Part shown: positions 12,379-61,310 of the stretch, in pieces
How the letters are laid out: each line of letters opens with the position of its first letter
Numbering within the stretch: position 1 is the first letter of the stretch
Assembly (NCBI GenBank): GCA_002105175.1
Contig: MCGE01000034.1
Coordinates: 314,001-378,000, forward strand
DNA length: 64,000 bases
Source: Absidia repens
Taxonomy: Eukaryota; Mucoromycota; Mucoromycetes; Mucorales; Cunninghamellaceae
Direction of reading: 5' to 3'
Notes under the pieces: generated by a model
Told to the model about the DNA's origin: nothing
What the model saw: only the letters and a program-made list of their open reading frames with translations
Database searches by the model: none
Made by a program: the position numbers and the translations under genes

Positions 12379-12452
12379 GTCTTCGTGGTGTAGTTGGTTA
12401 TCACGTCTGTCTAACACACAGACGGTCTGCGGTTCGAATCCGCACGAAGACA
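12379..12452 (+). tRNA. tRNA-Val (anticodon AAC)
   Basis: The cloverleaf can be read directly. The acceptor stem GTCTTCG (12379-12385) pairs fully with CGAAGAC (12445-12451), and the discriminator is A at 12452. The D-arm contains GTAGTTGGTTATCAC. The anticodon stem TCTGT/ACAGA encloses the loop CTAACAC, giving anticodon AAC. The T-arm TGCGG-TTCGAAT-CCGCA is perfect. There is no intron and no encoded CCA. A TTTTGC...TTTTT stretch downstream would serve as a Pol III terminator. It reads GUU valine codons, with A34 presumably modified to inosine. Confidence 0.95.
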
Positions 12453-12964
12453 TTCTCTTTTGCTGTTTTTCACGAAACAGCGGAGTCGGAGTCGTTGAGG
12501 TTTGCATCAATTTCCCTTTTATAGACATTTGATTCATAGAGAAAAGAGCCACAAATGTCCATATCCTGTTGTTTTTTTTTTTTCTGATATATTATTGCAA
12601 GGGGCGTTGGAGATTATTTTAAGACACTGAAGTTCATTTTCATATGAGATACATTACCATGAATATTACCTGAACTGTGACAAATGTTCCTCATGATAAC
12701 AGAAAAAAAAATCTTCTACAAATCGTATACATCATATATTATCACAATAGTACGGTAGCTACAAATAATAGCGAAGATGAGTGATATAAGAAAGAATGTT
12801 GCAGTTCAGAAAAAAGGTTAAAGGAAAAAACTGTGCCTCATGAAATATTCAAAAGAGGTTTATATATATATATATTTTTTTTTGTGTGGATATGTTTTTT
12901 TGTCATCGTAATGAAAAATGGTATCGGAAAAAATCAGGGACAGCTTAGCTGGAGGCCACCAGCA

Positions 12965-14070
12965 AACACATTTCAAATCCCGCGCCCGCTGAATTTTTTA
13001 TTTTTCGCTCTTTTCCGTTTCTCTTCCTTTTTCATTCTTCTTTTTTTCTTTGCCATTCAACTTCTATGGGGTTATTTTGGACTTAGATTAATATCAGGAC
13101 TAGCTTAGAAGGGGTTTCAGCTCAGGGATCACAACATGCATGGGGAAAACCTTTTATTTTGGATTCAGGATCTGGAACCATCGTTAGTTGGCTTTTTGGA
13201 GTCTTCAATAACTTAGTTTAGTGTTAGTTTGTCCATAGGTGGAATCTATATTGAATAAAATATGTCTCTTTTTACTTCCTTCAATGAAAAATGAGCCAGT
13301 TGTCTCTTTCATGTTTTGTACAAGGAGCCCTTTTTTACTGCATCCTCTTCTGTTGATTGGTGTTAGATGTTGGTGCTTAAATAAAACATACCATTTCAGT
13401 CTTCCTCAAATCATGTATAATATATTAGTTCCCCTTTTTATAATTTTTCCTATGATTCAGTGTTGACCATTCTTCAAGTCTTACATTAGTCTCCCCTCTC
13501 ATAGATCCTTCCATGAAACCCTTTTCTTGCAATGACTCTCACCCTCTCCCTTAGGTAGTATTTATTATATTCTGTCAAATAAAATATAATTAAATAAATA
13601 ATGTCGCTATTGTAGCGGGTTAGTCAGTGTGCTACCAAATACCAGCTCTCTAATTCATACACTATGACTGCTACTGCACCTCGCCGTTCCCAAGGAACTG
13701 TTTGGCAATCTTTGCTCACTTACGATTAAAAATAGCCACATTCCTGCTAGATTAGTCATGTAAATAACTCTAGGCCATGATGTGTGTGTGTGTGGTCGTC
13801 GCTATAGAGCATAACGTCCCAGTTCTAGCTTATCTTTGATTACTTATCACCTTTCCTCCTAGACATAACGGCTGAATATCAGTTCTAAATTCACTTGCAA
13901 TAATATAAACCATGGCCCTATTCTCGTTCTATTCTTCATATTAATCAACGTAGACCGGGTCCCCAGCGCACCCTCTGCTAGACTGGACATACTGTTTATA
14001 TCCAGCTCGTCATTTTTTATTTATTTATTTATTTGGTTTATTGCATGTGGTATAATAAATCCCCAAACTG
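12965..14070 (+). repeat. Dispersed ~1.1-kb repeat, copy A
   Basis: Non-coding element shared with copies at 29, 46.6, 55.4 and 60.6 kb. Order of conserved blocks: a CCCGCGCCCGCTG GC-rich patch, a T/C-rich stretch, CATTCAACTTCTATGGGG, a TTAGATTA-x-x-TCAGGACTAG box, TTTCAGCTCAGGGAT, an ATGCATGGGGAAA box near 13136, TTAGTTGGCTTTTTGGAGTC, TTGAATAAAATATGTCTC (first poly(A)-like signal, about 13252), a second AATAAAAT near 13579, then a GCTACCAAATACC box and a TATATCCAGCTCGTCATT end block. No long ORF. Divergence between copies suggests an old or fast-decaying family. It could be a solo LTR, another non-autonomous element or a repeated non-coding transcription unit. Confidence 0.8.
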
Positions 14071-14305: not shown

Positions 14306-15925
14306 ATGCCAGAATATGAAGACCAGCCCTCTTACAGGGTACTGAGTATCCAATCGCACATGGTAAGAACAATTGCTTGTGTTATGACTATAAATTACTA
14401 ACTGAACTTTTTGTTCTTAGGTCTCTGGATATTGTGGTAAACGGGGACTGACAGCAACCGGCGTGACAATTTTGTCAATTTACCTCTCTTCACTTCACTG
14501 ACTGATATATGCTATCTTTTTTTTTTTTTTTTTTTTTTTTTGTTTTTTTTTTCTGTCTCCTTCAGGAAACAAGGCAGCAACTTTTCCTCTACAAACCCTC
14601 GGATTTGATGTCGATATTCTGAATACAGTGCAATTTTCAAACCATACAGGTAATGAAGAGATAAGCATATCAAATGACACCGATATTTATGGTCGAACAA
14701 TAAACGTTAACCGCCTTTCTTTTGTTTAGGTTATTCTTCTTGGACAGGTGGTCGCCTTAGCTCTTCCGATGTTCAACAGCTCTTTGATGGCATGGAAACC
14801 AACGGTTTGATGGACCATTATACCCATGTGTTGACAGGTATTGTATTGTCCAACATTGATTTTTTTTTTTTCTCTCTCTCTCTATGTTTTGTGTAAAAAT
14901 GACTCAAGACTCACTCACCTCACTCTATATTTTGTATAATAGGCTACATTGGAAACTTTGATATTTTACGAACGATCGAAGACAAGGTCAAGCAACTCAA
15001 AACCAAAAGCCCAAAGTTGATTTATGGTAAGGAGAGCTGGTAGTTGACATTATAGACCTTCCCCCCAAAAAAAGCGGCAATTTTAATATATATTCTATAT
15101 TACAGTATGTGATCCGGTGATGGGAGATGGTGGTCGTTTATATGTTGCGCCCGAAATTGTGCCTTTGTATCGTGACATCTTATCAGTGGCGGATGTGATC
15201 ACTCCAAATCAGTTTGAAGCAGAGTAAGTTTATAAGAAAAAGGGCGATTCTTTTGGTTGGGAATGGTGTGTGTGTGTGTGTGTGTGTGTGATGCGAGCAA
15301 GTGATTGGTTTTATTCACTTTTTTCTTTTTCTTTCTTTATTTCAGGGTTTTAGCTGACATGAAAATCACTAGTGTCAAATCGGCAAAGCAAGTCATCCAA
15401 AGAATTCATGACTTTGGCGTGGACAGAATTGTGATCACATCTTTAGCTTTACCTAGTCAAGATATACCGGCATCTATCATTTTATCACCTGGGAACGACC
15501 CTCTGGCGAAAAAGAATGGAACCGCCGCTCATGATGCCGATGCTCAGTCTGAACAACCACTTTACTGTTTGACAAGTCAACGTCTCCCTGACGGTACACT
15601 ACAACAACACTTGATCTCATTCCCCACATACGAAGGCTATTTCACTGGAACGGGCGACTTGTTCTCGGCGTTGACGGTGGCTAGATTACAGGATTACCCA
15701 CATTCATTGGCTCATGCGATCTTCAAAGTCGTCTCTTCGGTGAATGCAGTAACACGCTTGACTTGGGAACATCAACGTAGATTACAAGGAAATGGGCCAC
15801 TGGTGACAAGCAAACCGGATGACGCCAACCTTGTGCGTGCGTGCGAATTACAAGTAATCAAGGGCAAGAAGTATATCGAACATCCAGATATGATTGGACA
15901 TGATGTTTTGATGGTAGAATTGTAG
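14306..15925 (+). CDS. Pyridoxal kinase (Bud16/PdxK family)
   Basis: Seven exons: 14306..14362, 14421..14436, 14566..14649, 14730..14837, 14943..15026, 15106..15223, 15346..15925; phases close to 348 aa. It phosphorylates pyridoxal, pyridoxine and pyridoxamine with ATP in the cytosolic vitamin B6 salvage route. Signatures: [19 protein letters not shown] at the N-terminus, then [41 protein letters not shown] and [10 protein letters not shown]. Near the C-terminus is the [11 protein letters not shown] ribokinase-fold motif with the catalytic Asp of GTGD. The second exon is only 16 nt and codes for VSGYC plus one base of the next codon. Length is typical for fungal members. It is convergent with the BICRA-like gene. 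Confidence 0.95.
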
Positions 15926-20173: not shown

Positions 20174-21412
20174 ATGTTATATCTAACAGCCGACTTTTTC
20201 CCAGTGTTTGTTCCCCTTGGTGTCATTGGCTTCTATCGCTACCTTATATTCCTCGTTAAACTATGCGGCTGGTTTGTTTATCGACCCATCCGACCTATTG
20301 CCAATCCCTTATATCAAGCCAAGAACGATGTGACAATTGTGGTACCCACCATTGACGCTGGCGAAGAATTCTGTGAAGCCGCTCGCTCATGGCTTGCCTG
20401 CAACCCCAAAGAAATCATCGTGGTGACCGAAGCCTGTATGATGGAACCCATGGTGGCACTGGCCAAATCCATTGATGCTGATCGGATCCGAGTGCTCTCT
20501 GTACCACGGGCAAGCAAACGAGTACAAATGGTGGAAGGCGTGATTCATACTAAGACGGACATTCTAGTATTTGCTGATGACGATGCTATTTGGCCACCAA
20601 CCATGCTGGAGTACATTTTGGCCTGCTTTGAAGACGAATCCGTCGGTGGAGTGGGAACATCGCAATCAGTCAAGTCACTGGGCCGGCATCAATCGATCTG
20701 GGAAATTTTGGCGGGATTTCGATTATCGGTGCGCAACATTGAAGTGGCAGCATCGACGCACATTGATGGTGGTGTTTGTTGTATCTCTGGTCGAACGGGC
20801 GCTTATCGTACTGTCATTCTCAAAGATCCGTCGTTCCAAGATTCGTTTATCAATGATTATTGGCGCGGCAAATATCAACTGAACTCTGGCGACGACAAAT
20901 TTTTGACCCGGTGGATGGTATCACATGGATGGACGACATATATGCAGGTGTGCAAGGAAGCCTTACTTTTATCTACCTTCAAGAACAATTGGCGGTTTTT
21001 AAAACAAGTGCTGCGTTGGACAAGAAATACATGGCGATCTGACTTCCGGTCCTTATTCATGGAACGGTGGATTTGGCACCAACACCCATTTGTAGCCTAC
21101 ACGATGATCGACAAGTGCCTCAATCCATTGTCTCTCCTCAGCGGACCTGTCTCTGTTATGGTATTGTGTAATTTGGACTATCATTTACCCAATTGGAATA
21201 TTGCCGCCTCTTATTTTGCTTGGCTGTTGATCACCCGTTGTGTCAAATTACTCCCTCACCTGGCAAAACGACCGCAAGATATTTGGGCTCTTCCCGCCTT
21301 TTTAATCTTCAATTTTTATTTCGCTGTCATGAAATTGTATGCTTTGGTCACTCTTCATCAAACTGGTTGGGGCACAAGAAAGGAAGCAGTAGTGGAGGAT
21401 CAGCATTATTAG
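20174..21412 (+). CDS. Cps1-type family 2 glycosyltransferase (hyaluronan synthase-like)
   Basis: Intronless, 412 aa from the ATG at 20174 (an upstream in-frame ATG at 20123 is less likely, since ACAACAATG is the better context). An N-terminal membrane helix (FVPLGVIGFYRYLIFLV) precedes the GT-A core: TIVVPTIDAGEEF, then FADDDAIWPP (DxD), GGVGTSQSV, SGDDKFLTRW and QVLRWTRN, a canonical QxxRW motif. Three or more C-terminal membrane segments follow. This is the family of Cryptococcus Cps1 and the filamentous-fungal GT2 required for hyphal growth on surfaces. The product polysaccharide is unknown. All catalytic motifs are intact. AATAAA lies at 21448-21453. It is one of few intronless genes in an intron-rich window. 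Confidence 0.85.
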   Translation: MLYLTADFFPVFVPLGVIGFYRYLIFLVKLCGWFVYRPIRPIANPLYQAKNDVTIVVPTIDAGEEFCEAARSWLACNPKEIIVVTEACMMEPMVALAKSIDADRIRVLSVPRASKRVQMVEGVIHTKTDILVFADDDAIWPPTMLEYILACFEDESVGGVGTSQSVKSLGRHQSIWEILAGFRLSVRNIEVAASTHIDGGVCCISGRTGAYRTVILKDPSFQDSFINDYWRGKYQLNSGDDKFLTRWMVSHGWTTYMQVCKEALLLSTFKNNWRFLKQVLRWTRNTWRSDFRSLFMERWIWHQHPFVAYTMIDKCLNPLSLLSGPVSVMVLCNLDYHLPNWNIAASYFAWLLITRCVKLLPHLAKRPQDIWALPAFLIFNFYFAVMKLYALVTLHQTGWGTRKEAVVEDQHY

Positions 21413-28959: not shown

Positions 28960-30200
28960 TCGGGTAAGCTATTCTATGGTGAATTACAAACTATTTTATA
29001 GTGTAGGGGTGTAAGCTAGGCGAGACCAAATTGCTCTAAGGTGAATTCAAAGTCCTTGATAGAAGAGAAGCACCATGTCGCCAATGTTGAATGATGGTGA
29101 TTGCTTTAAAAGGAAGGCAAAGCCACGATGCTGCGATATTGACTGCTGTAAAAGGAAGAGGGAGTCACTACGCCGCTGTTATTGAACGGTAACGACTGCT
29201 GTATTGAAGAGAGAATTGAAACGTTCGTCAGATTGTATAGCGTTGATAGTTGTAAAATGAGAAACTACAAAAGTGGATACCCAAAAATCTTACAAACGAT
29301 GGAAAAATTTTAAATCCCGCCCACGTGGATATTTTTTTTCTCCCATTATAATTTTTTTTCCCTCTTCCTTTTTTATTCTTCATCATTCAACTCCTATGAA
29401 AATAGATTGGACTTAGGTTAGTGTCAGGACTAGTTTAGAAGGGGGTTCAGCTTAGGGATTACAAGATGCATGGGGAAACCCTTTCATTTTGGTTCTAGGA
29501 TCTGATTACACCGTTAGTTGGCTTCTTAAAAGTCTTCATTAGCTTAGTTTAGTCTTAGCAATCGTTTATTATATCTGAATAAAATATATATATTTTTATT
29601 TGCTTCAATGAGCAATGTCCCATTAGACTCTATTATGTCTTGTGCAATAGATTCCATTTTTGTTTTGATCAATGTTGCCCGTTGTTGTGAGTCAATATTA
29701 GATATGCCTTTAGTCATTCCTACGACTTGCCTAGTATACTAGTTCACTGTATACAACTATTTATTTATATTACGTTGACATTCTTTGATCTCACATTAGT
29801 CTCCCTCATGCTCCCTCCAATAGATCCTCCTTACTGGATCTGCTGAATCTCTCACCTTTAGCTGTAATGTCTACCCATATGCTTCAATAAAATATGTCCT
29901 TTTATTAACCATATTCTGACTCATCGTATATTAATCAATGTCGTTATTGTAATTGCATTCTGAGCGTCCTACCAATACATGTTCTCTCATTCACCCTCTT
30001 TCCACTCCCCTTGCCCCAATAACTGGTTGGCAGTTTTAGATCACTTAATATCAAATCTAGCTATATCCTTGCTCTATCAATTCATATAAATATTATAGAT
30101 TGTACCCTCAGCGTAATCTCCGCTAGACTTGTACATATTATATATATCCAGTTCATTACTTTCTTATTGCATGCCGTATAATAATAGTAGTAATAATAAA
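28960..30200 (+). repeat. Dispersed ~1.1-kb repeat, copy B
   Basis: Same block order as the copy near 13 kb. The GC-rich box is CCCGCCCACGTGG (about 29314), followed by the T-rich stretch, CATTCAACTCCTATG, a TTAGGTTAGTGTCAGGACTAG box (split here by mismatches), and CAAGATGCATGGGGAAACCC at about 29462. Then come TTAGTTGGCTTCTTAAAAGT, a GAATAAAATATATA signal near 29576, CAATAAAATATGTCC near 29886, TTTTAGATCACTTA and TATATCCAGTTCATTA near the end. Upstream DNA back to about 28960 contains TATTCTATGGTGAA and GACTGCTGTAAAAGGAAG motifs also found upstream of other copies, so the element may begin earlier than the GC box. No coding frame. Confidence 0.8.
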
Positions 30201-30670
30201 GACGCCCAAACGGAAGCTAGCTGGGTCCAATTACAACAATTAAAATTTACCATTACGTTTTCGCTGAACTATACCAAAGTGGTGAAAAGAAAAAGGAGCG
30301 GCAATTTGCAGATAATTACCGCAGTATAAAAAAAGGAAGGCTTAGTATTAGTTATTATTTGCCTATAGCAACTATACCCTTTGTTTCTTTGGCGTTGTCG
30401 ACATTTGCCAAAAAAATTAGGAAGGTCTTCTGAATGGTCTTGCGAGAATTTCGGCTAAATATTTATGAGTGGTGGTAAAATCAATTAGATGTCTGGTAAA
30501 ATCTTTATGCAGAATTTAGATGTGTCCGAGACAAGACACTCGAAAATTATTCTACGAGGTCAATAATATCATCCATTTATCTTCTAGAAAAATAGTTATT
30601 ACCAAACAAAAAAAACCAGCAATTGTGGTCGGTTTTCTTTCTTTTTTCACAAACAAACAAACAAAACATT

Positions 30671-44867: not shown

Positions 44868-46329
44868 ATCGGATAGTTTATAGTCACCCCCTTTGTATAT
44901 GAACCAAATCCCCTAGCTTTACTATTTTTTATCTTGTACATTCTGACCCTCATCTTGTGAAAAAAAAATATTATGATAGATGATTTATCTTGATCCCTTT
45001 TTATGAAATTCAAGTCAATAAAGAACTTTTATTTGTCCTATATTTTGTTATGTCTTATTTGTTTTATGTTGTATATCCATCAGAAAACATTGGTTTTCTA
45101 TATATGTCTCATGTTAGGTGTTAGTTATACTTCTCACGATGAAAATCGACTCCGACCGAAATAATACGTAATAATAGTGTATACCAGTTCTTCTCCACTT
45201 TTTTTGCCACTACTGGATCGGCATGAACCCTATGTTGTCTTTCTTTTCACGTGTACCGTTTTATTCCGATCCCTTCCAATGCCACCGTTTTATTCCGTTA
45301 GTCATTATTTTATTTCCATGAATCTCAATCCATCATCAGTCAGCATCACTCTCTATTACTCCTTGCAAATTATATATTACCATCGTCATTTTGCTATGAC
45401 CCGATCTTTCTATTTTGGGCCTGTCATTTTTTTAGGCTGGAAATGAGCACGAAGGGTCTCTTATTTCCATGGAAATCATATGTAATAATTCCAAGACGGA
45501 GAAGCATGAACTAGTTTGTTCTTTCTTTCCTTGTTTTGACCGTTCCTATTTGTTTTTTGTGCCTGATTTTGTGCAACTCACCCCACCCCCGCAAAAAATA
45601 ACATCCACCCCCTGCCTCTGGGATTTAAAAAAGAAACCTAATATTGGTTGATTGAATCGAGAATGACATAATATAACTGCCCTCCATTAACACTATCAAT
45701 AAATAATAGGTGTATGTTAATATTATTGCGCTATTAGAGATCCGTGATAGATATAAATGTGCGTGAGTGTGTGTATGATGACCAAAAAACAAAAAAAACC
45801 CCAGGAGATCTATTACCACTAAGTGACCTGTGATTATTCTGGAAAGAAGAGAATATAAATAATCATGGAGCAAGCTGTAAGATATGCGTAATTGACGTTT
45901 CCATCAGACAAGTACCGTATATTATGATCTCCTGTTTTCAATTGATAAATCCGGCTGCAATATCTGTCAGATTTAAATCATGATAATTTTTAAACGCAGA
46001 AACTCAGAAAACGATTTATTGAGTAAAACCTTTTGCTTGAATTTTTTTTTTTTATCGTGGCCAGTAGATCTAAAGGGCAACAAACATTCCAGCAATAGAT
46101 AGTAATCATATCAATAACGAAACGGAAAGGCAAAATTGAAATACACACATCATGTAAGACATTCTCATAAAAAATATGTGTTCGCTATTATAATATGGCC
46201 GTCCAGCATCCCCTTCGTTTTTATTTTATGTATAGGTGAATCACACCATATTTTAATATGGCAGTCAAGAAGATAATAGCATGCAACACTTTAATGCATT
46301 TACCATGTACTGAAAATTACATTGTTATG
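44868..46329. other. Spacer downstream of GAPDH
   Basis: No supportable gene. The first 180 bp are the GAPDH 3' UTR. Short frames at about 45177-45651 are AT-rich without motifs. The motif AATATGGC occurs twice near 46193 and 46256. Confidence 0.45.
45017..45022 (+). terminator. GAPDH poly(A) signal
   Basis: AATAAA in TCAATAAAGAAC, about 150 bp after the stop, followed by T-rich DNA. Confidence 0.6.
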
Positions 46330-47410
46330 AGCTAATAGAGTATAGAAACTATGATAACTAATACACCTATTCTACAGTGAAGACGGTGAACAAAACTAGG
46401 CCGAGTTGTTTCATGTTCAGTCAGAGGCATCATGTAAGGAGAATTGCAATGTCGATTATGCTACATGGTATTGACTGTTGTGAAAAAGAAGAGAAACAAA
46501 AAAAAGGGGGGACGTTCCTGGTTTTTCACTGAAGTAATAGTAATCGCAAATCAAATCCTTACAAGAGACCAAAAAAATACGAACTTCAAATCCCGCGCAT
46601 GTGAAATATTTATTTTCCCTCTCCCCGCCTTTTTTAATTTTTGGACTCTTCTTTCCTTTTCCTTCCATTTTTTCTTCACCATTGAACTTCTATAGGGTTA
46701 TTCTGGACTTAGATTAGCGTCAGGACTAGTTTAGAAGGGATTTCAGCTCAGGGATTACAAGATGCATGGGGAAACCCTTTCATTCTGGATCTAGGATTTT
46801 GGACCCTCCATTGAATGACTTTGGAGTCTTCATTAGCTTAGTTCATTGTTAGTTTGCCCGTAGTTTGTATAGTATCTCAATAAAACATGTCTCTTTTTTA
46901 CTTGCTTCAATGAAAAGTGTTCCGTTAGTCTTTCTCATGTCCTGTGCGATAGATCCTTTTTTTTTTTTTATACTAGCCTCGCCGCTTTTGATTAATGTTG
47001 ACCGCTGTTGTTCTTCAATAACAGGTGCCCCTTTCGACAATCTCATGCCTTGTAAAATATCCTAGTTTACATTTTACAATTGTTCCTTTAGAATAGCACT
47101 GATCAGTTTTTAGATCTCAATCTAGCCTTCCTCTTGCGTCCTCCAATAGATCCTTCCTTTACTACAATAAACCCCTCTGGTTCAGTTTTAGTGTCCATCA
47201 ATATGTTTCAATAAAATGCTCTTTTTTTCTTGACTACCCTCTGACCCTTAATATAGTAAATGTGGCTATTATCACTGTTTTGTGAATGTCCTAGCAATTA
47301 TCTGCTGTTTGGTCCAACTTCTAGAATTATTCTCTCCCCGCACCCTAGGAACTGGTTGACCGTCTTAGATCACCCACTGCCAAAGATAGCCGTCTGCCGA
47401 TCAAAATGGG
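46330..47410 (+). repeat. Dispersed ~1.1-kb repeat, copy C
   Basis: Upstream motifs TATTCTACAGTGAA (about 46371) and ATTGACTGTTGTGAAAAAG (about 46468) match DNA upstream of copies B and D. Core: TCCCGCGCATGTG (about 46590), T/C-rich stretch, CATTGAACTTCTATAGGGTT, TTAGATTAGCGTCAGGACTA, TTTCAGCTCAGGGATTACAA, GATGCATGGGGAAACCC (about 46761), GACTTTGGAGTCTTCATTAG, CAATAAAACATGTCTC (about 46878), CAATAAAATGCTC (about 47210), CCTAGGAACTGGTTGACC and TCTTAGATCACCCACTGCC. It ends near 47410. The best-preserved copy along with D. No coding frame. Confidence 0.82.
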
Positions 47411-48578
47411 CTGCAATTGGACTTGAGGAGGAAGCGTGAATAAGGTAAATGTAAAAATCTATAGGGGTGTAATTAAGAGTGATAGAGGCTAAAATATATG
47501 GTTTTCTATTTAATCACTTACATAGATGGCATTACTGCAGGCAGCCTACAGATCCACTCCTATTATGGCGAAGGACAAGGCGCTCACGGTTTTACTTCCG
47601 GTACCATCTTCTTCAGAGAATAGAAAAAGCACAATGTGGTGTGCCTCCTAGTTTTAGTTGGATATGTATTATTTACCCCACTTTTTTTTTTATTCTATCG
47701 TTTTTTTTTATTTATTTTTTATTTATTTTTACATTGTTTTCTCATCATACTACATCGTCCTCACCTATTAATTTATTCTTCGCTGCTGTATTGTTTTTGG
47801 TATGACTTGTCTGTTCGGTATAATTTTTTATAGTTTAGCTTTGTATTTATTAGAGTAGTATCATTTAGTTTTTAGTTCCTATTCTTATTACTTGGTCAAA
47901 CGAACAAAAAAATGTTGTATAAGAGGTCAAATGATGATTTGACTGTCTTTGTATTTTTATTCTATTGTAACTTTTGTTCCTGTAATTTATGTAAAGTGAT
48001 GCATATGATAGGTACTGTGAATGCAAGCTACCTTAATGACCAGTGGTGAAATTCAGGAGTCATTTATTGATGGCCATAGAAAATCGCTATTAAGGTTTGG
48101 TTGAGATTAAACGGTCAGAGGTTTACCTTTTTTTTTTTTTAATTTTACTGTCGTCACATCACAATGGTACGAATTTTAAATCGTTATTGGTTTACTGTCA
48201 TGACTGACTTTCGGTATGGTTGTGATTTACTGTACGACGTTTTCAAGTTTATGCAATGATTAAATACCGCTTCTTAGGGTAGAATACAAAATAAAGTTTG
48301 GTGCAGAACGTTCAGTTAAATTTCCGTAATGATTATATTTGGTATAAAAGATGGTATATAATGAGAAATGAAATAAGGGATATTGGCTCACAAAAAACTA
48401 AAGCTATGAACGCAAACTCGAGGTCAACATCTTCTTTCGGTTTTAAGGATTTGGTCAGATGGGAGTAGATGGGAACATGATTACTAAATGTGAAGTCATT
48501 ACATATTGTCATCATTCAAGGAATATAAAACGTGAAATATGAAGCATTGAAAAAAAGGAGAAGAGCCATACATCCCTT
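47411..48578. other. Spacer upstream of GH3 beta-glucosidase 1
   Basis: T-rich DNA around 47680-47850. A 40-codon frame beginning near 47526 has no motif. No gene can be supported. Confidence 0.45.
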
Positions 48579-54564: not shown

Positions 54565-55299
54565 ATTAATAGAAAAAAAAAAGAGACGTTAGTTTGATGT
54601 AATTTCCTAGGCACGTATATGTATATATAATCCAACGTTTTTTTTTTATATGAATAAATAACAAAATAATGAAACAAAAACTTACATTGTTACCGTCATT
54701 GGCTCCATTCTATGGATGAACCATAGGGAAAAATTGAAACAATAATCCAAGTCCTTTGAAACAGCTTGCTGGGGCGACTATATTGTAGTTGTCACTTTAC
54801 ATATTGGTCGGATCGGCTAAAGTTGTTGCGTTGTTTTCTTATTATCGTTTTCAGGCTGCTATAGTTCTGATGGTCGAAAGCTTGAGAGGACAAAATAGCT
54901 AATAAAGCAAAAAAGGAGCCAAAAAAAAAAAGCATATGTAAGAAAAAGACAAATAATGCAATCCAAGGAAAGGGAAAAAAAACAAAATTTTGAATCCCCG
55001 CAGTTCACAAAAGAAAAATAAATAAATGGGGATGGGGCAGCTGCAAACCTGTCCCCAGGAATTTACATTAGCTATCATGTATTGATTATGTAGGAATTGC
55101 AACTGCCTTTCCATCGGAAGATAAAACGAATACGCGAATTATGTTGGACTACGGAGCATTATGGTAATTATGACGATTGCCCCTTCCTTTAATTTTTATT
55201 CGCATTTCCCTGATTTTTTGACATAAAAAAAAAAAAAGGCTAGATGATTCAGGCTCCGCATTTTGCTTTCTATTTTTTTTGGACCCTTTTTTTTTGCCT
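54565..55299. other. Spacer downstream of arrestin gene
   Basis: AT-rich, no gene. AATAAA sites at about 54655. A GAATCCCCGCAG patch near 54993 resembles the GC-rich box that opens the dispersed repeat, but the usual downstream blocks do not follow at once. Confidence 0.45.
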
Positions 55300-55600
55300 C
55301 TCTTTTTCTTTTTTTTTTTTTTCCTTCATGATAGTCTGAATGATATGATGGCAAGGCTCATTGGGGCACTGGTGATCTAGGATTAGTGTTAGAACTTGAA
55401 TTAGGGGCGTTTTAAAAAACGAAAAACAAACATCATGGGAAGACCCTTTCATTTTGGATGTAGGATTTGGGGACGTCAGTAGATTAGCCTTCATATTAGA
55501 ATAGTGCCATTGGCTTAGGTTAGGTTATTGTTAGTTGTCATAGTTTACACAGTATACATATCTGAATTAAACATGTCTTTTCTTTCTACCATTTATCTCT
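55300..55600 (+). repeat. Dispersed repeat, degraded copy E
   Basis: A short, more diverged copy. Recognisable pieces in order: CTAGGATTAGTGTTAGAACT, CATCATGGGAAGACCC and CTTTCATTTTGGATGTAGG at about 55431-55466, a CATTGGCTTAGGTTAGGTTA segment, TTGTTAGTTGTCATAGTTTA and CTGAATTAAACATGTC (about 55561) in place of the poly(A)-like signal. The second half of the element is not evident. Confidence 0.6.
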
Positions 55601-55951
55601 TTCATGCCTTTTATTATCTCGTTGAATGGGCATGAGTAAAATCCGGTGTGTGTATTGTGTGTGTATGTAGAAAGCTATGTGCTTGTGCAAAAAAAAAAAA
55701 AAAAAAAAGTGCACTACATAATATTTTTGTTGTCTGCCTCCTTTGCATTTCGCAATTGAGTGGATTATATAGAGTCAGTGCTAACGCTAATTATTCTGGG
55801 CAGGATTAAATGCCGGTGGCTCATAAGCAAAAAAATAAAAAACCATTCATAACATAGCGAAGGACACAGTTTTATTTGTTTGACAAAGTGATAAATAAAA
55901 AATAATGGGAAGACAATACTAGAATTTTACTACTATAAAATATAACTATCA
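55601..55951. other. 3' spacer of GH3 paralogue 2
   Basis: Holds an A19 run at about 55690 and the downstream region of the minus-strand GH3 gene. No gene seen. Confidence 0.5.
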
Positions 55952-60299: not shown

Positions 60300-61310
60300 G
60301 AATAAATTCTACGACGAATGACATACTATTCTATCTGTAAAAGAGTAAATGGGATAACGTATTCTATGCTCTGGCAAATGACGAATTATTCTACAGCGAA
60401 GGTAAACTAGACTGTCCAAGTTGCTCCCTGTTAATCGCAAAAGGCCGTTTGAGAAGAGAGTAACCATTCTGCTAATGTTAAATTACTATCATGAAAAAAT
60501 AACCGCGATGTTGTAGTCACAAGAAAAAAGAACAGGACGAAAAATCATTTCAATTTCCGCCCACGTGGATTTTTATTTTCGCCAATTTTTTTTTTCCTCT
60601 CACTCTCTTCTTCTCATTTCTTTTTCTTCATCATTCAACTTCAATGGGGTTATGGTAATCTTAGATTAGCGTCAGGATTAGTTTAGAAGAAGTTTCAGCT
60701 CGGGGATTACAAGATGCATGGGGAAACCCTTTCATTTTGGATCTAGGGTCTACAGCCACCATTAGTTGGCTTTTTGAAGCTTTCATTAGCTTAAGCTTAG
60801 TGTTAGTTTGTCCATAGTTTGTATCTATATCCGAGTAAAAATATGTCTATCTTTATATGTTTCAATAAAAAGAATTTCCCATTACTCTCTTTCATATCTT
60901 GCGCAATAGATCCTTTTTCTACAATCATCACCCTGGTTGATTAGTGTAGAACTTGGTAGTGCTGTACTTGTCCCTTTAGTCTTTCTCATAGAATGTATAG
61001 TATATTAGTTCCCATTTTACAATTGACCCCTTTAGCTTAATGTCGACCTTTCCTTCAGAACAGCTAATAGTTTCCCTCATGTTGCTTCCATTGGTTCCGT
61101 TACTCTAATGAACCCCACAGTTCTCACCATATCCCTCCAAATAAATTATATCTTTTTATTATCTACCGTCTGATCATTATATCATGAGGAAATATGTTGT
61201 TTTAGCTATATTATGAGCGTCCTACCAAACACCTGTTCCTAGCTTACTCACTATGACTACGTGTCGCCACCCTCAGTAACCGAGCCATAGGTTTACGGTT
61301 TCTCGGTCGC
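60300..61310 (+). repeat. Dispersed ~1.1-kb repeat, copy D
   Basis: Upstream motifs TATTCTATCTGTAAAAGAG and ATTATTCTACAGCGAAGG occur at 60327-60402. Core: CCGCCCACGTGG (about 60557), T/C-rich stretch, CATTCAACTTCAATGGGGTT, TTAGATTAGCGTCAGGATTA, TTTCAGCTCGGGGATTACAA, GATGCATGGGGAAACCC (about 60713), CACCATTAGTTGGCTTTTTG, a GAGTAAAAATATGTC variant of the first signal (about 60834), CAATAAAAAGAA, CCAAATAAATTATATC (about 61138) and GAGCGTCCTACCAAACACCT (about 61217). It ends near a T28 tract (61311-61338). The CACGTG palindrome in the GC box is shared with copy B. Confidence 0.82.

Follow-up and report, generated by a model that had tools for sequence, protein, structure and literature searches.

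What kind of element recurs five times within 64 kb of a fungal genome, in one orientation and with the layout of a small transcription unit? The question is raised by a stretch of 64,000 nucleotides of the Absidia repens genome (Mucorales; 47.4 Mb, 79 contigs), C28:314001-378000, referred to here as the window. An initial annotation had described in it an undescribed-looking, intergenic and non-coding repeat that begins at a GC-rich box and resembles a promoter, start site and poly(A) signal, and had proposed a solo long terminal repeat (LTR), a terminal-repeat retrotransposon in miniature (TRIM) or a repeated non-coding gene as its nature. The repeats appear to form a non-autonomous family derived from Tc1/mariner elements, with an old type found in the window (A), young relatives (B) and a third type (C). 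In our view the window repeats are likely to represent type A, the branch of these IS630-Tc1-mariner non-autonomous DNA transposons with the greatest age and copy number, and the module that they carry is likely to be constrained in each copy.

A copy profile (hidden Markov model, HMM) built from 38 copies bears out the five copies on the + strand of the window (Table 1), and none of 47 copies examined overlaps a predicted exon, in agreement with their description as intergenic and non-coding. The core 20-mer CAAGATGCATGGGGAAACCC is present in four of the window copies with 0-2 mismatches (chance expectation 0). These four are of the A type and follow one order, namely a GC-rich box, a T/C tract, a CATTCAACTTC-like site, a conserved block, AATAAAAT, and a second half with another AATAAA, so the dispersed family with a promoter-, start- and poly(A)-like layout is supported. 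The layout does not extend to all five copies, since the 55-kb copy (c55) is of type C, with ATTAAA and no box, and the copy at 60 kb (c60) has lost the first AATAAA at its own place and has a neighbouring one at 60864.

Motif counts over the whole genome (up to three mismatches; for the core 20-mer, the control was the pattern read backwards) gave 3,893 matches for the core 20-mer (control 1), 988 for a tail 20-mer (control 3) and 992 for the type-C core (control 5). The family is thus not a set of five local copies; it is new as a family, and the kind of DNA transposon to which it belongs is a known one. Core 20-mer matches are divided between the strands as 1,925 + and 1,968 - (p = 0.5); because of this balance, the shared orientation within the window (p = 0.06 for five copies) is chance and does not characterize the family. 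On contig C1, a run of plus-strand matches only, considered as strand bias, looks like an artefact of the order in which places were listed. Six further 10-kb stretches, taken blind and searched with the same profile, contained six more matches, one of them weak (14.7 bits), with one stretch having none, and the density of modules is about one per 11 kb.

In the alignment of 38 copies, the right arm of A runs from the box through the T/C tract to CACCATTCAACTTC, then through a block of about 230 nt containing a near-fixed TACAAGATGCATGGGGAAACCCTTTCATTTTGGAT to AATAAAATATGT, beyond which a less uniform second part, containing another AATAAAATATG, fades about 1.1 kb after the box. The box is not the start of the repeat, as had been proposed: a degenerate left arm lies upstream of it in 27 of 44 copies (loose profile criterion), and the consensus of that arm, read leftwards, matches the right arm across 72 nt including CTGAATAAAATATGTCT (E 2e-11). 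A therefore consists of two head-to-head units around the box, 1.1-2.1 kb in all, and its termini are inverted repeats. The module common to A, B and C comprises a T/C tract, a start-like region, a conserved block of about 50 nt and a poly(A)-type signal about 120 nt past the 20-mer. In c55 the type-C core CAAACATCATGGGGAAACCC has 2 mismatches and the upstream DNA resembles locus L076 (by eye); AATAAA or ATTAAA is found in 6 of 7 C-like modules. Judged by sequence, C probably represents a separate transposon family, because the C-type modules of L076 and L041:3800-4520 have a further upstream stretch in common (GAGCTTTTGGAAATC...GCGCGTCGTCAAT, by eye).

The kind of element is read most clearly from B, whose copies of about 0.9 kb carry 29-nt terminal inverted repeats (TIRs) in six of six copies read, one left TIR being damaged, with TA alone common to both flanks; 180 such ends occur genome-wide (control 0). 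B elements are internal-deletion derivatives of a 3.2-kb element bearing a transposase-like gene. Element L078 combines B TIRs with an open reading frame 53% identical to L080-L082, the predicted structure of the L081 transposase matches SETMAR/Mos1, a mariner transposase, and Pfam matches of the transposase-like proteins, DDE_3 included, are all under cut-off. The form of these elements shows the spread of B by a mariner-type transposase through its TIRs. In the one coding element read that holds the module, the latter has the left TIR on one side and the 3' end of the transposase-like gene on the other, and points at the gene. Copies of A have TATGGTGCAGTTCAGCAAG on their left and the reverse complement of this motif on their right, at varying distances from the box. 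When 41 copies were scored with a 28-nt form at threshold 26, TIRs were found in 9 of the left flanks (wrong-orientation control 1) and in 12 of the right (control 0), both being present in four copies (L004, L013, L015, L018); the signal is weak in single old copies, and a 19-mer of the TIR has 544 genome matches (control 10). A and B TIRs agree in their first bases, TATGGTGC.G.TCA, which is the only part common to A and L078/B, and the better A TIRs start and finish in TA, the copies being too old for a duplication to be separable from the TIR.

Some further features of the coding and B elements were observed. L080-L082 (99.3-99.8% identical) and C14:477522 are near-identical mariner-type elements of 2.93 kb that, by their sequence, were probably active recently; the open frame of L081 has 714 aa and C14:477522 has an open stretch of 750 aa. 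Relatives of the L078 transposase-like gene lie at C35:143319-144458 and C48:30689-31757 (at most 92% and 77% identical in their best pieces), some pieces carrying stop codons. A (CATCTA)n microsatellite of variable length is found in B copies L070-L075 near the junction of the missing transposase-like gene.

The divergence of A fits one burst, or nearly so, followed by mostly independent change. The copies compared were 49, each spanning the box to beyond HMM position 690, with 34 chosen by BLAST and the other 15 taken from the window itself, from the stretches sampled blind or from the list of 20-mer matches. Their tails deviate from the consensus by 0.209 per site (standard deviation (sd) 0.030 between copies), internal branches make up 4.9% of the length of the tail tree versus 4.0-5.0% in five column permutations, and mean linkage is 0.0213 versus 0.0208 permuted.

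The decay of A copies is uneven. In the 15 less selected copies, deviation is 1.0% at AATAAAA-1 and 5.9% at AATAAAATA-2, amounts to 12.8% for the box and 14-15% for most of the core, and reaches 17-25% in the tail; for the 20-mer of the four window copies it is 2.5%. Of the 49 copies, 45 keep AATAAA-1 and 43 keep AATAAA-2, the latter being the best kept among 435 tail hexamers (mean 0.27); two other AATAAA of this consensus survive in only 15 and 3 copies. An alignment-free count used 29 modules (27 A, one B, one C) picked by the 20-mer alone (up to four mismatches) in the window, in the stretches sampled blind and at 20 places off the exact-match list. AATAAA lies 95-175 nt past the 20-mer in 28 of them versus 12 of 63 control windows, with c60 scoring among the 28 through its neighbouring hexamer, whereas in the left arm no 80-nt window has an equivalent signal in more than 10 of 27 copies. 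Given this one-sided retention, the embedded unit, of RNA polymerase II (Pol II) type, appears to be constrained copy by copy, and we infer that selection, rather than another cause, lies behind the retained AATAAA.

These elements would have spread as DNA, with a mariner-type transposase recognizing their TIRs (TATGGTGC...) and inserting them at TA, and would have carried as a passenger the module of T/C-rich promoter-like stretch, initiation-like site, conserved block of about 50 nt and one or two AATAAA. The module is presumably transcribed by Pol II, because of its layout and because it retains poly(A) signals that are dispensable for DNA transposition; it would give a polyadenylated non-coding RNA of roughly 0.2-0.55 kb with an expected start at CATTCAAC, and such RNAs may still be made and be of importance. 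Loss of the transposase-like gene would have produced B elements, and A would have been amplified in a single old burst, or nearly, after which most of each copy would have drifted, while selection on individual copies would have held the core block together with the poly(A) signals of the right arm. The simplest cause would be that the module is still transcribed and that failed termination harms the neighbourhood, a function of the RNA or a role of the core as a binding site being just as plausible.

Several observations weigh against this interpretation. At score 26 the right TIR was missed in 29 and the left in 32 of the 41 A copies, and none of four loci read is a coding element with A-type termini, for which reason we can only infer that A was moved by the same kind of transposase. 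The transposase elements L080-L082 have no module, which is thus not part of the core machinery of the transposon. The star is imperfect, with a tail-distance spread of 0.033 versus 0.022 permuted, a closest pair at 0.19 (never below 0.246 in permuted data) and 0.028% strong linkage pairs versus 0.007%. Regarding retention, most of the aligned copies were picked by BLAST and all 49 were required to pass the second signal, the two AATAAA that are not kept may be weaker consensus calls (one reads AATAAC), and a stricter alignment-free motif finds AATAAA-2 in just 13 of 29 modules (control 2 of 63). The B module is only mildly slower than its two flanking stretches (23/1,446 vs 98/3,532 deviations, p = 0.015), with no slowing of its core block (12/525), so constraint is not plain in young copies, a test of low power because B is young. 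Finally, the core hairpin GGGTTTTC...GGAAACCC, striking as a candidate structured RNA, showed no covariation in the stem tested, its 5' arm drifting without compensation.

Part of this evidence suits an ordinary, old family similar to miniature inverted-repeat transposable elements (MITEs), in which the module was fixed in active source elements, by acting in cis or by hitch-hiking, the copies decay neutrally, and the slow core reflects the sources or gene conversion. The little extra constraint on the B module, the plain origin of B by deletion and the slightly imperfect star all agree with it, and conversion could favour the stretch that is most alike. We nevertheless regard it as unlikely, since the near-star tree and near-permuted linkage place most of the 21% tail divergence after the burst, and since neither a slow region nor conversion predicts that the slowest tail site should have the size of a hexamer (AATAAA-2) or that retention should be one-sided, with the left arm decaying. 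Strict MITEs are short (under about 0.6 kb) and high-copy internal deletion derivatives; B fits in copy number and deletion origin, and the size is exceeded by B at 0.9 kb and by A at 1.1-2.1 kb.

The repeats might instead be a dispersed, dosage-dependent family of host non-coding RNA genes kept by selection for their total RNA output, with transposon carriage secondary. Neighbouring sequence is indeed less well kept than the box, the start-like region, the core block and the poly(A) signals on the right, L080-L082 are transposase-bearing relatives devoid of the module, and folding lies about 5 sd under column shuffles for the stretch 131-470 and about 4 sd for 235-800. On the other hand, the core stretch 235-345 folds no better than column shuffles (RNAalifold), the stem tested is without covariation, a scan of the window at Rfam gathering thresholds found a tRNA alone and nothing in the repeat, and a lax scan of 46000-47600 gave two sub-threshold matches, taken as chance. 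TIR carriers moreover explain the spread. The earlier suggestion of a repeated non-coding gene holds for the content of the repeat and fails for its mode of spread, and host genes of this sort appear improbable as its origin.

Three other avenues were tried. A 44-aa frame across the core looked protein-like; no candidate had three words in common with it, and column conservation is without a codon-position pattern (by eye). A B box requires G as its first base, and reading TTTCAAATCCCGC as the B box of a short interspersed element (SINE) was rejected on this point (by eye). A scan of viral contigs for a 30-mer gave no match.

A retroposon, similar to a SINE or to the tail of a long interspersed element (LINE), could also have been nested into TIR elements, as the kept poly(A) signals, the TATAATAATAA-like tails on some A right ends and the tandem pairs of modules within L076 and within L077 might indicate; the copying of the box and the upstream arm along with the rest, and the lack of both a poly(A) tail and a longer target duplication beside the modules read (by eye), make this very unlikely. 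Lastly, solo LTRs or a TRIM element, whose U3-R the promoter-to-poly(A) order resembles, can be dismissed almost with certainty, because the terminal repeats, from TATGGTGC, are inverted rather than direct, TA alone is common to both flanks (clearly in B, more weakly in A) in place of TG...CA ends with 4-6 bp duplications, and a transposase-like gene lies inside the same TIR frame, the structure of B already contradicting them.

Table 1. Copies of the repeat in the window and their features (positions within the window).
Feature	Position	Strand	Evidence
A-type copy c13, conserved right arm (box, T/C tract, start-like region, core, two poly(A) signals)	12971..13708	+	HMM 2-797, 551.7 bits
c13 probable left TIR (AATGTTGCAGTTCAGAAAAAAGGTTAAAG)	12795..12823	+	4 mismatches in 19; local score 34, wrong-orientation control 16
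c13 promoter-like box (consensus TTTCAAATCCCGCCCACGTG; 4 mismatches in c13)	12971..12990	+	2,816 genome matches at <=3 mismatches, control 0
c13 core 20-mer	13132..13151	+	2 mismatches
c13 poly(A) signal 1, AATAAA	13254..13259	+	kept in 45/49 aligned copies
c13 poly(A) signal 2, AATAAA	13578..13583	+	kept in 43/49 aligned copies
c13 right subterminal motif TTGCATGTGGTATAAT	14041..14056	+	0 mismatches
A-type copy c29, right arm	29308..30034	+	HMM 2-798, 511.8 bits; AATAAA at 29578 and 29886
c29 probable right TIR (CATTACGTTTTCGCTGAACTATACCAAA)	30251..30278	-	local score 32, wrong-orientation control 14
A-type copy c46, right arm	46584..47363	+	HMM 2-798, 656.4 bits; AATAAA at 46879 and 47166
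C-type copy c55 (without box; ATTAAA replaces AATAAA)	55265..55608	+	HMM 44-371, 80.2 bits
A-type copy c60, right arm	60548..61291	+	HMM 2-790, 500.1 bits

Scoring of the flanks for TIRs did not find the right TIR of c13 itself, nor either TIR of c46 and c60. Around c13, a tRNA-Val (AAC) gene lies at 12379-12452, about 0.35 kb upstream of its probable left end, and a pyridoxal kinase-like gene with short introns begins at 14307 (+), shortly past the copy (by eye, MPEYEDQPSYRVLSIQSH...). Elsewhere in the window, the open reading frame at 20174-21412 is 100% identical to an Absidia repens polysaccharide synthase. For the 47 copies, a gene neighbour was identified upstream in 22 cases and downstream in 20, and 29 of the 42 face the element with their 3' end; a link with gene orientation was not drawn from this, as short first exons are easily missed.

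Non-autonomous DNA transposons are usually viewed as needing just their ends, with the internal sequence left to drift. In A. repens, an internal module with promoter-like and poly(A) signals is present in several element types, and old copies keep particular signals of it while neighbouring bases and the other arm decay. If the A copies are mariner-type transposons with a module under constraint, a possible though doubtful extension is that thousands of these fossil elements are kept singly as functional non-coding transcription or termination units, on which the host would have become locally dependent for termination, insulation between genes or chromatin marking, with purifying selection on the core and poly(A) signals at most loci. 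One ancient burst would then have set a promoter-RNA-terminator module about every 11 kb. With some 4,000 copies and internal controls, the family is a natural experiment that bears on whether a whole generation of transposons can be domesticated by a genome as transcription units or terminators.

The kind of element, non-autonomous and derived from Tc1/mariner, is already known; the open-licence literature searched contained, among the matches listed, nothing on this A. repens family, its size, its shared module or its retained signals. Tc1/mariner elements are reported to be the largest group of transposable elements in Mucorales (PMC7928374). The A. repens repeats resemble them in the TA target, the TIRs and the predicted mariner-fold DDE transposase of L080-L082, and differ in that the window copies are without transposase and carry a conserved promoter-to-poly(A) module, and in that A has two head-to-head arms flanking the CCCGCCCACGTG box. 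Stowaway elements likewise target TA. A Stowaway-like MITE of carrot, DcSto1, is reported to reach about 5,000 copies per diploid genome (PMC3695323). The A. repens elements are similarly non-autonomous and number in the thousands, but are longer (0.9-2.1 kb), have other TIRs and show a conserved internal transcription module, a star-like age and retained poly(A) signals. Known Tc1-like promoters drive the transposase. Tc1-like elements have been described as carrying 'blurry promoters' (PMC6446368), and the repeats studied here are likewise Tc1/mariner elements with promoter-like sequence. Their module differs in being aimed at the 3' end of the transposase-like gene and in ending in its own AATAAA. 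Finally, the SIDER retroposons of Leishmania are very old, number in the thousands and have a single conserved signature block, and a regulatory role has been proposed for them; they have no TIRs, and the A. repens repeats are thus like them in behaviour only.
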